A DNA stretch of 64,000 bases, from assembly GCF_002198735.1 (NCBI RefSeq), contig NZ_MWLO01000115.1, forward strand, positions 1 through 64,000, read 5' to 3'. The DNA comes from Ideonella sp. A 288. Lineage in GTDB: Bacteria; Pseudomonadota; Gammaproteobacteria; Burkholderiales; Burkholderiaceae_C. Position 1 is the first letter of the stretch. Each line of letters starts with the position of its first letter. Of this stretch, positions 58,581 through 60,909 are shown piece after piece. A program made the position numbers and the translations under genes. The notes below the pieces were generated by a model. It saw only the letters and a program-made list of their open reading frames with translations, searched no databases and had not been told where the DNA came from.

Positions 58581-58685
58581 GGGCTCGAGCGTCCGTCGCA
58601 CCCGTCCCACCAACCATGCGGCAAGACCGTCGCAGGGCAGGAATCCTCATTCGGTGTCATGCTCGCGCGTGTGCCGAGCAAGACC

Positions 58686-59477
58686 ATGACCAACCTCACC
58701 GACGCCCTCCACATCCCCGACACCCAAAGTGAGCGTGACGAACGCCACGTCGCCATCCAGCGTGTCGGCGTCAAGGATGTGCGCTGGCCGCTCACGTTGC
58801 GGGTGGCCGGGCAGCCGCAACAGACCACCGCGCAGTGGGACCTCGACGTGGCGCTGCCCGCCGACAAGAAGGGCACCCACATGTCGCGCTTCGTGGCCTG
58901 GCTCGACCGCCTCGCCGCGCCGGTCGATGCGGTGCTGCTGCGCGACCAACTGGCGGCCATGCTCGAACTGCTGGGCGCGCAGGAGGGCCGCATCGAGTCG
59001 CGCTTCGCGTTCTTCCTGCGCAAGCGCGCGCCAGTGTCGGGCGTGCAGAGCCTGCTCGACTACCAGGGCCGCTGGATCGCCGAGACCCGCGGCGGCACCA
59101 CCCGTGTGTGGGCCGAGGTGGGCGTGCCGGTGAAGAGCCTGTGTCCGTGCTCGAAGGAGATCTCCGACTACGGCGCGCACAACCAGCGATCGTTGGTCAC
59201 GATCCGCGTCGAGCTGCGCCAGGCCATCGAATGGCACGAACTGGTGCGCTTCGCCGAGGAGTCGGCGTCCAGTGAGATCTGGCCGCTGCTCAAGCGCCCG
59301 GACGAGAAATGGATCACCGAGCGCGCCTACGAGAACCCCAAGTTCGTCGAGGACCTGGTGCGCGACGTGGCGCTGAAGCTCGACGCCGATGCGCGCATCG
59401 GTGCCTACACGGTCGACGTCGAGAACTTCGAGAGCATTCACAATCACAGCGCCTATGCGCGCATCGAGCGCGCATAG
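58686..59477 (+). CDS. folE2: GTP cyclohydrolase FolE2 (type IB)
   Basis: 263 residues from [18 protein letters not shown]. Converts GTP to dihydroneopterin triphosphate for folate using Zn or another divalent metal; it replaces Fol[21 protein letters not shown] holds the catalytic cysteine and metal residues, and [17 protein letters not shown] is another signature. A start nine codons upstream is possible. The last about 40 bases and the following non-coding DNA are repeated 123 bp downstream, listed separately. It shares a strand with dxs, 105 bp away. Confidence 0.94.
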
Positions 59478-59636
59478 GCCCGCGCGCAGCGCGGCGGGCG
59501 CGGCACGCGCCCGGCTGGTCTTGCGGCAACGACTCACTTGCCGGCGGCAAGTGAGTGTTGTCACAACCACAGCGCCAGAATGCGCATCGAGCGCGCATAG
59601 GCCCGCGCGCAGCGCGGCGGGCGCGGCACGCGCCCG
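59438..59636. repeat. 76-bp direct repeat of the folE2 3' end flanking a long hairpin
   Basis: Bases 59438-59513 (end of folE2 plus 36 bases after its stop) recur at 59561-59636, offset exactly 123 bp. They differ only at one base near the start and in a 5-base block. The second copy retains the final folE2 codons and stop but not the gene. Between them, 59527-59560 forms a hairpin (CAAC plus ACTCACTTGCC against GGCAAGTGAGT plus GTTG, one bulged G, 3-base loop). Confidence 0.85.
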
Positions 59637-59676
59637 CGAGCTGTCGCGGATGCGCCAGGGTTCCTGAACTGCGGAG

Positions 59677-60909
59677 ATGAGCGTGCCGTCGAGCTTCCGG
59701 GGCGCCGACGTCCACGATCCCCGGGGCCTGCGCGAGGCCGGGGCCGAGTGGTTGTCCCTGGCGCTGATGGACGCACGCAACCGCACGTTGCGCTGGCTGT
59801 CCGCCTTCGAGGGCTTCACGCCGGGCGAGGCGCTGGCTGGCTTCGATCCGCCGGCCTTCACCATCGGCCACGCGGCCTGGTTCCAGGAGGCCTGGATCTC
59901 GCGGCTGGTGCAGCGTGGCCGTGGCCCTGCGGCCGACCCCGGGGGCCCGCGCCTGGCTTCGATCGAACCGCAGGCCGACGGCTGGTTTGCGCCCGGTGCC
60001 TGCACGCCGCTCGAGCGTTGGGTGCGGGTGGCCGACTACCAGGACGGCCTGCGCAGCTACCTGGCCGCCACGCTCGACACCACGCTCGAGTTGCTCGACA
60101 AGGCCAGTCCCGAACCCGCGGGCCTGTACTTTTTTCGCCTGGCGCTGCTGCACGAGGACCGCAGCGCCGAGACGCTGGCCGCATTGGCGCGGGCCGTCGG
60201 CTTGCCGCTGCCCGACGATGCGCACCTGCTGCCTGTGCCACCGCCCCGGCCTCGCCGTGATGCGCTGGGGTTCGGGGCCCAGACGGTGTGCCTGGGCACG
60301 CCGGGCGGTGCCTTTGCGCCCGACAACGAACGGCCGGCGTTCGAGGTGGCGGTGCCCGAGTTCGAGATCGATGCCCAGCCGGTGTGCTGGTCGCAGTTTG
60401 CCGAGTTCGCCGCCGATGGCGGCTACGACGAGCCACGCTGGTGGTCGCCCGAGGGCTGGGACTGGGTCGAGGCCACGCAGCGCCGTGCGCCGCGCTATGT
60501 GGAGCAGTTCACCGGTGGGGTGCTGGTGCATGCCGGGGGGCGGGCCCAGCGCGTGCCGGGCGGGCAGTCGGCGCTGCACGTGGCCTGGTTCGAGGCCGAC
60601 GCCTGGTGCCGCTGGGCCGGACGCCGCCTGCCCACCGAGGCCGAATGGGCGCTGGCGGTGTCGGTGGCCGGGCCCCGCGGCTTCGCCTGGGGCGATGGCT
60701 TCGAATGGGTGGCGGGTACCGCACGGCCCTGGCCCGGGCAGGTCGACGGGCCAGCGCGGCTGGATGCGCTGCCGGCCAGGCCCGGGGGGCGGGTGATGCG
60801 GGGGGCGTCGGCGGCCACGGTGCCGCGCTTGCGGCACCCGGGGGCGCGACGGTTCGCCGCGGGCGCCAGGGATGAGCTGTTCAGCGGCTTTCGCAGCTGC
60901 GTCTGGTGA
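59677..60909 (+). CDS. EgtB/SenA-like DinB plus FGE-sulfatase domain protein with altered metal motif
   Basis: 410 residues. About 1-165 is a DinB-like helical domain (LMDARNRTLRWLSAFEGF, FTIGHAAWFQEAW) and about 215-410 a formylglycine-generating-enzyme-like domain (RLPTEAEWALAVSVAG, FAWGDGFEWVAG, FSGFRSCVW). This layout is that of EgtB, OvoA and SenA, iron enzymes that join thiols or selenols to histidine derivatives. The usual HxxxH iron motif reads HEDRS here, so the third iron ligand is replaced by serine. DARNRTLRW-type sequences suggest the SenA (selenoneine) branch, but senB and senC are not next to it. It may be inactive, use another ligand, or have a new role. Nothing upstream within the operon explains it. 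Confidence 0.7.
   Translation: MSVPSSFRGADVHDPRGLREAGAEWLSLALMDARNRTLRWLSAFEGFTPGEALAGFDPPAFTIGHAAWFQEAWISRLVQRGRGPAADPGGPRLASIEPQADGWFAPGACTPLERWVRVADYQDGLRSYLAATLDTTLELLDKASPEPAGLYFFRLALLHEDRSAETLAALARAVGLPLPDDAHLLPVPPPRPRRDALGFGAQTVCLGTPGGAFAPDNERPAFEVAVPEFEIDAQPVCWSQFAEFAADGGYDEPRWWSPEGWDWVEATQRRAPRYVEQFTGGVLVHAGGRAQRVPGGQSALHVAWFEADAWCRWAGRRLPTEAEWALAVSVAGPRGFAWGDGFEWVAGTARPWPGQVDGPARLDALPARPGGRVMRGASAATVPRLRHPGARRFAAGARDELFSGFRSCVW

Follow-up and report, generated by a model that had tools for sequence, protein, structure and literature searches.

Integrative elements of the end-restoring type target a tRNA anticodon loop or a gene 3' end and carry the end of their target with them, and integron attC sites are folded hairpin units in tandem whose boxes, RYYYAAC and GTTRRRY, are complementary. 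Smaller palindromic repeats are also described: GTAG- and CGTC-tagged REP sequences (PMC3733652; REP and TnpA_REP, PMC8266576) are small palindromes behind genes that form clusters repeated together with their flanks and that supply stop codons, with the GTAG terminal kept in >90% of members of most families and degenerate (e.g., GYAG) in some (PMC3733652). ERIC and RU miniature elements (PMC2759123) are ~100 to 170 bp long, form hairpins, are considered nonautonomous, and are found at gene 3' ends, with RU elements adding new residues that extend the protein and showing a TA target duplication.

The duplicated gene end behind folE2 in the window (the whole 64,000-nucleotide stretch of Ideonella sp. 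A 288 DNA analysed here), together with similar units elsewhere, shares features with each of these systems. The small palindromes behind genes, the clusters that repeat their flanks, and the supplied stop codons are REP-like, but there is no fixed GTAG, the hairpins are nested and have GNA loops, the same set of genes recurs, the gene end is present in a second copy, and no link to Y1_Tnp was found. The size, hairpins, and gene-end position recall ERIC and RU, whereas the native C-terminus is re-supplied rather than extended and no TA duplication was seen. The target position and the element-borne target end are those of integrative elements, but the units are 60 to 160 bp, lack an integrase, and use one S-unit, a conserved hairpin unit described below, for many targets. 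The tandem folded hairpins resemble attC, and many canonical S-units contain GTTAAGC, which fits GTTRRRY; however, the opposite box is noncomplementary (many canonical S-units have GGCTAAC/GTTAAGC, not complementary over the seven bases when read by eye), there is no cassette ORF, and the repeated units are alike.

REP clusters repeated with their flanks and repeat-supplied stop codons are already known (PMC3733652). For restoration of an identical C-terminus at a recurrent position across a set of genes, no description was found in the open-access PMC literature as far as its texts were accessible, nor was one found there for this gene-end and hairpin layout; the accessible parts of a triplex repeat paper (PMC4666352) and a Bordetella repeat paper (PMC3110155) hold nothing on it. 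We lean slightly toward reading the folE2 duplication as a small, structured, ORF-less element of ~60 to 160 bp, a member of a family spread through the Burkholderiales, that supplies a replacement gene end. This recurrent family probably adds a new variant to the known small palindromic mobile DNAs.

The folE2 unit and its folded structure

The folE2 gene (GTP cyclohydrolase FolE2; Pfam PF02649, E 6.8e-84) occupies positions 58686 to 59477 of the forward strand in the ORF list; the ORF opens at an ATG at 58659, and the likelier start is MTNLTDAL at 58686. An earlier note had reported that its 3' end is duplicated, and this is borne out: positions 59438 to 59513 are repeated at 59561 to 59636 at an offset of 123, with 70 of the 76 positions identical, and the second tail contains a stop codon (TAG) as well as two GC hairpins behind it. 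The six mismatches are at 59444 and 59454 to 59458, and both tails share a perfect 55-bp run (59459 to 59513). A wider alignment at the same spacing, 59438 to 59526 with 59561 to 59649, has 87% identity over 89 nt. The local repeat score is 124, compared with a maximum of 37 among 500 shuffles, and folE2 is the only one of 166 window ORFs (stop-to-stop, at least 200 codons, both strands, called mechanically and including many that are not genes) with its tail duplicated within 300 bp. An assembly artefact is an unlikely source of the duplication because independent assemblies have a matching layout.

The first tail, T1 (59441 to 59477), is the functional one and begins at a TCA|CAA junction (59440/59441) placed by comparison with the junctions of S-units elsewhere. 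It opens with arm a1 (59441 to 59450), followed by hairpin A (59451 to 59479), a 12-bp stem across the stop codon in which 59451 to 59462 pair with 59468 to 59479, and then by two predicted hairpins, B (59480 to 59494) and C (59495 to 59513). The closing arm a' (59514 to 59523) is complementary to a1 and to the start of T2, and the a1/a' stem is partly decayed, with 7 of 10 pairs left as counted by eye. The folE2 variant of the S-unit (59524 to 59563) is a hairpin of the form GGCAAC-GACTCACTTGCC/GGCAAGTGAGT-GTTGTC that ends in TCA before CAA, and both window junctions therefore read TCA|CAA. Repeat comparison places the second folE2 tail, its stop codon, and hairpins B and C in T2 (59564 to 59636), which has no S hairpin behind it; all of these parts are on the forward strand. 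The hairpin previously noticed between the tails is present with arms at 59529 to 59543 and 59545 to 59559, but only 13 of its 15 positions are paired, the uninterrupted core being the 11 bp ACTCACTTGCC/GGCAAGTGAGT, and rather than being the whole structure it is one of five stems in a larger fold. The 55 bp over which T1 and T2 are identical were probably homogenised by a recent conversion or duplication event.

The unit folds in the order outer stem (tail start with closing arm), hairpin A over the stop codon, B, C, and then S, such that T1 forms a cloverleaf with the stop codon inside a stem, and the fold of 59420 to 59660 is much stronger than those of 200 shuffles (z −6.9). Across 12 aligned folE2 units, 91.1% of cells are paired and 35 of 50 pairs are changed on both sides, values that lean toward structure because the model itself guided the alignment and was built from six of the 12 rows. 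None of 500 shuffles matched these data on any of five measures, and shifting the partner by one to three columns gave at most 45.6% paired cells and at most 13 pairs changed on both sides. Such changes affect 5 of 10 pairs in helix 1 (a1/a'), 3 of 12 in helix 2 (hairpin A, with four invariant pairs), 5 of 6 in helix 3 (hairpin B), and all 7 in helix 4 (hairpin C); helix 5 is the S hairpin. A search of Rfam 15 by E-value with 59300 to 59800 gave six matches, all under gathering scores, and the best of these, Giardia U1 (minus strand, 59436 to 59556; 27.3 bits, with a gathering score of 100), spans the element and was treated as a chance match.

The next gene (59677 to 60909, forward strand) lies outside the element and codes for a 410-aa protein with an FGE-sulfatase (SUMF1-like) domain (Pfam PF03781, E 1.3e-17) that resembles EgtB/SenA-type enzymes; the DNA at its start recurs in other members of the genus.

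The same order of folE2 tail, hairpins, a differing hairpin, and second tail is found in other genera, and a T1-S-T2 arrangement is present at folE2 in G018, G025, G110, G269, a Roseateles MAG, and Paucibacter. Among 145 distinct folE2 loci, 12 have a duplicated tail whose score exceeds that of every one of 100 shuffles of the same locus, and nine of the 12 have the full layout on reading; at L148, L052, and L141 the structure is present with a weak second tail. In genome G055 the tail occurs six times within an array of 145-bp units that have the canonical S-unit frame, and G172 has another folE2 array. With up to one mismatch allowed, the folE2 tail pattern gave 50 listed matches in 47 of 299 family genomes, all within folE2 or directly behind one, and the core palindrome is present in 12 of the 299, of which 11 are at folE2 by coordinates, whereas no folE2 match lies near the palindrome in the remaining genome, G260. 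Two oddly placed tail matches are explained by genomes with two folE2 genes each, G075 (L315 and L133) and G281 (L316 and L139). Searches of plasmids and phages with folE2 unit L148 (blastn) gave no match at E 0.01, and a folE2 tail pattern matched nothing exactly in viral contigs. At the other three of the 12 loci, L116, L117, and L138, short 17- to 23-nt copies of the ARIER core lie close behind the folE2 stop without an S hairpin, and these are possibly deletion scars of a full element.

Three origins had been suggested for the duplication. Plain recombination scarring leaves unexplained the common S-unit, the junction, and the recurrence of one layout at a dozen genes with no relation to each other. 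A duplicated 3' regulatory unit is a possible alternative. A trace of a lost mobile element comes nearest, with a structure that recurs at particular genes in many genomes and has a conserved hairpin unit and junction, except that what is seen looks like a complete small element rather than what is left of a larger one, because all folE2 tail matches listed in the 299 genomes are at folE2.

S-units at other genes and their junctions

A model (R1) built from six folE2 units only matches 25 of the 299 family genomes, and 11 of the 30 places listed fall at other genes (ftsW, acs, and metK); at nine of the 11 the local gene tail is present twice, L190 and L203 being the exceptions. The window genome itself has two further sites: an AlaX-like gene, at which the R1 match is weak (E 0.018) and a direct repeat around an S hairpin scores 119, and a tRNA-Ser gene, found by an S-hairpin pattern, with the 5' half of the tRNA repeated. 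The S-hairpin pattern is present in 81 of 299 family genomes, with a single match in all of them for the reversed-pattern control. Matches are most numerous in G241 (22 forward and 18 reverse, where one hairpin can count on both strands), and a direct repeat was found at 28 of 56 S sites examined.

The canonical S-unit conserved across the Burkholderiales is CGGC-GNA-GGCT...GGCC-GNA-GCCA, and reading of the sites gives a fuller form, CGGCGNAGGCT-hairpin-AAG-hairpin-GGCCGNAGCCA. Three-base loops in folded S-units are GNA in 51 of 68 cases. A slightly looser form of the frame matches 57 of 399 order genomes, compared with four control matches, and some of these 57 are probably chance matches (e.g., G657, G427, and G046, with no hairpins by eye). 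The window S-unit has neither the GNA/GNA frame nor the second hairpin, and the window-type folE2 units are a variant whose family membership rests on layout, junction (CA|CAA rather than GA), and the S hairpin.

Named targets of S-units are metK, proB, argF, ftsW, acs, GAPDH (gap), nrdA, pyruvate kinase, and smpB, together with sarcosine-oxidase-like and AlaX-like genes (both under the curated cutoff), and the tRNA targets are tRNA-Ser(UGA), tRNA-Ser(GGA), and tRNA-Leu(CAA); part of the named-target units lack the second tail. An ORF stop lies within 130 bp upstream on the same strand for 38 of 51 S-units, compared with 138 of 1,020 random positions, and on the opposite strand for 16 of 51; the units behind these counts are not independent, as they include arrays and recurring genes. 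At L280 (1440 to 1684), an S element interrupts the 5' half of a tRNA-Leu(CAA) at the anticodon loop, and this half is followed by an intact tRNA-Leu.

The junctions are similarly recurrent. The S-unit search pattern fixed the final CCA and left NAA, GA, and the tail free, and NAA directly follows the S-unit in 40 of 51 units. Of the 51, 38 have a clear stem that runs precisely up to the S-unit, and the opposite arm starts at GA|NAA in 29 of the 38, a motif with a background of 345 in 111,233 positions (0.3%) at the same loci. The left-junction NAA is partly expected because stem choice pairs it with the TTN that ends a', and the bases before it, which are free of stem choice, are G in 33 of 38 and A in 35 of 38. 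In 18 of 25 direct-repeat units the second tail starts in register with the first, give or take one base. The ftsW arm starts 31 nt ahead of the stop codon in five units of six (L186, L187, L226, L267, and L284). In L228 the tRNA-Ser repeat covers the tRNA from its 5' end as far as the anticodon; it is one base longer in L209, and its alignment extends further in L218 and L219.

Native and proposed replacement gene ends

Comparison of G269 with its element-free congener G032 shows which tail is native in one species pair. From T2 onward 336 of 400 positions are identical (366 of 400 for the upstream gene), and the 64 nt from the T1 stop to T2 have no clear G032 counterpart (local score 23, within the range of the shuffle maxima for the folE2 loci). 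Since the DNA from T2 onward matches that beginning with the only tail of G032, T2 is, on this alignment, the native end in G269. In ftsW of L196, the second tail leads straight into the next gene, presumably murG, as judged by position.

Codon differences between T1 and T2 are 68 synonymous and 30 nonsynonymous, with 24% synonymous expected without constraint (p 6e-21). This test used 31 tail pairs (21 direct-repeat units that have both a clear stem and an ORF stop, and 10 chosen folE2 loci, with L023, L052, and L198 left out), of which 12 were dropped at <70% nucleotide identity, several being misaligned by a frame shift or a wrong stem. The trend is opposite in the window pair (one synonymous and two nonsynonymous), L043 (none and five), and L178 (none and four). 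Serine codons switch family between T1 and T2 (AGC versus TCG) in 3 of 10 folE2 pairs (L140, L148, and L044). These differences fit an imported T1, although the synonymous excess could alternatively come from T1 alone being remodelled in place under coding and structural constraint while T2 stayed static.

The element would then consist of a tail-bearing hairpin or cloverleaf (NAA...tail with stop codon...TTN) plus the S-unit, and would insert at A|NAA just before a gene end or in the anticodon loop of tRNA-Ser or tRNA-Leu. It would carry its own copy of the target gene's end, such that the new copy, T1, becomes the functional end and the displaced native end, T2, persists as a relic downstream of the S-unit in the order T1-S-T2. 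Units stacked or amplified in tandem would produce arrays of the form (T-S)n-T.

The foremost competing explanation, which we regard as rather unlikely, is a local origin in which a palindromic gene end is duplicated and remodelled in place by replication slippage or template switching at hairpins, without a mobile element. Quasi-palindrome correction of this kind would perfect the stems and yield an inverted tail copy, and near-perfect foldbacks of the last proB codons without a second tail are indeed present in L268, L269, L281, and L285. The tandem arrays of near-identical units, the perfect 55-bp run common to the window T1 and T2, the short core duplications at L116, L117, and L138, and the presence of hairpins B and C in the window T2 also fit such an origin. 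It accounts poorly for one S-unit and junction being common to a dozen unrelated genes and tRNAs, for the native DNA behind the last T (in the one pair), and for the AGC/TCG serine codon switches.

Proposed mobility and the remaining alternatives

The anatomy, the covariation, the recurrence at particular genes, the junction, and the passage of T2 into native DNA in one congener pair are directly seen. The argument for a replacement-end element is weakest where it passes from recurrence to mobility. Such a unit may move site-specifically or spread horizontally by recombination in its flanks. GNA three-base loops are very stable in single-stranded DNA, and their frequency in the S-units hints at a folded DNA substrate, which would be a single strand. 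That the units represent a new class of mobile DNA, namely, ORF-less nested hairpins that would travel in folded single-stranded form, enter A|NAA sites at a recurrent residue close to the ends of a limited group of conserved genes and within tRNA anticodon loops, do no harm since they bring mostly synonymous copies of the ends they displace, and swap gene ends between genera by means of a recombinase supplied in trans, is a more tentative proposal and one we hold as possible but doubtful. If it is true, then tiny selfish elements repeatedly exchange the last codons of essential genes (metK, ftsW, folE2, and nrdA) while hardly altering the protein, which would be a new route to synonymous change that places a stem across stop codons; the substrate and junctions would be defined for finding the recombinase, and gene-end covariation need not imply a regulatory RNA.

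Candidate enzymes were sought among Y1 transposases and neighboring genes. Y1_Tnp does not track S copy number, being present in 14 of 20 S-rich genomes and in 14 of 20 S-zero genomes (the latter class defined by one narrow S-hairpin pattern), and it is absent from G241, G141, G314, G331, G150, and G319; a Y1 transposase may act from elsewhere or may since have been lost. Contig C1 of G034, a genome without S-hairpin pattern matches, has 20 Y1 transposase matches, several with identical scores. Twenty 12-kb stretches around S-units contain no recurrent neighbor gene (ORFs of at least 100 codons): the widest cluster, a 114-codon ORF in 4 of 20 stretches, overlaps the S-unit itself by its L314 coordinates, and the remaining clusters span two stretches.

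These comparisons also bear on the idea that the units are ordinary REP- or BIME-type repeats with a REP-associated Y1 transposase and flanking DNA amplified in tandem, which is improbable. The available part of PMC3733652 describes GTAG repeats as small palindromes behind genes, in clusters that repeat their flanks and are present in Thauera, with repeat-supplied stop codons, all of which is close to what is seen here, but it does not describe a second gene-end copy. The second base of GNAG is free in S-units (left, C28 A13 T6 G5; right, C23 A13 T11 G5; n = 52), so that the T of GTAG is found in just 6 of 52 units on the left and 11 of 52 on the right, and Y1_Tnp does not follow the S copies in the 20 S-rich and 20 S-zero genomes compared.

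Marginally less probable again is an RNA function, in which housekeeping-gene mRNAs have the hairpins as selected 3' ends (a terminator, a stabiliser, or a 3'-UTR small RNA) and the duplication is a side effect. The strong covariation and the sense orientation of units just behind stop codons would suit such a role; however, units are also found antisense to tRNA-Ser and inside a tRNA-Leu anticodon loop, 16 S loci searched against Rfam 15 match no family at gathering score except for one tRNA match, and the tail is duplicated at just 12 of 145 folE2 loci. Least probable of all is an attachment-site remnant of some larger integrated element for which the folE2 3' end served as attB. The gene-end and tRNA targets and the gene-end restoration are typical of integrases, but units of 60 to 160 bp have no room to encode one, no folE2 tail lies away from folE2 among the matches listed in 299 genomes at up to one mismatch, and one S-unit is common to many differing targets.

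With respect to MITEs, both junctions of the units are A|NAA, the outer a1-a' stem is internal to the tail part, and no constant terminal inverted repeat was seen. A separate group of S-units (L296, L299, L302, L305, L307, L309, L311, and L314) is followed by an identical ACACCGC flank; these S-units, from G357, G055, and G461, sit within larger dispersed repeats and look like hairpins nested in a MITE, and three of the repeat copies end in ...TTTTTCAACGGCCTG or nearly so. Just before the full S-unit in L296, L302, L309, L311, and L314 there is a mini-unit of ~22 bp, AAAACGNAGTTT plus CGGCGNAGCCA, as if the larger units grew by hairpins entering GNA loops.
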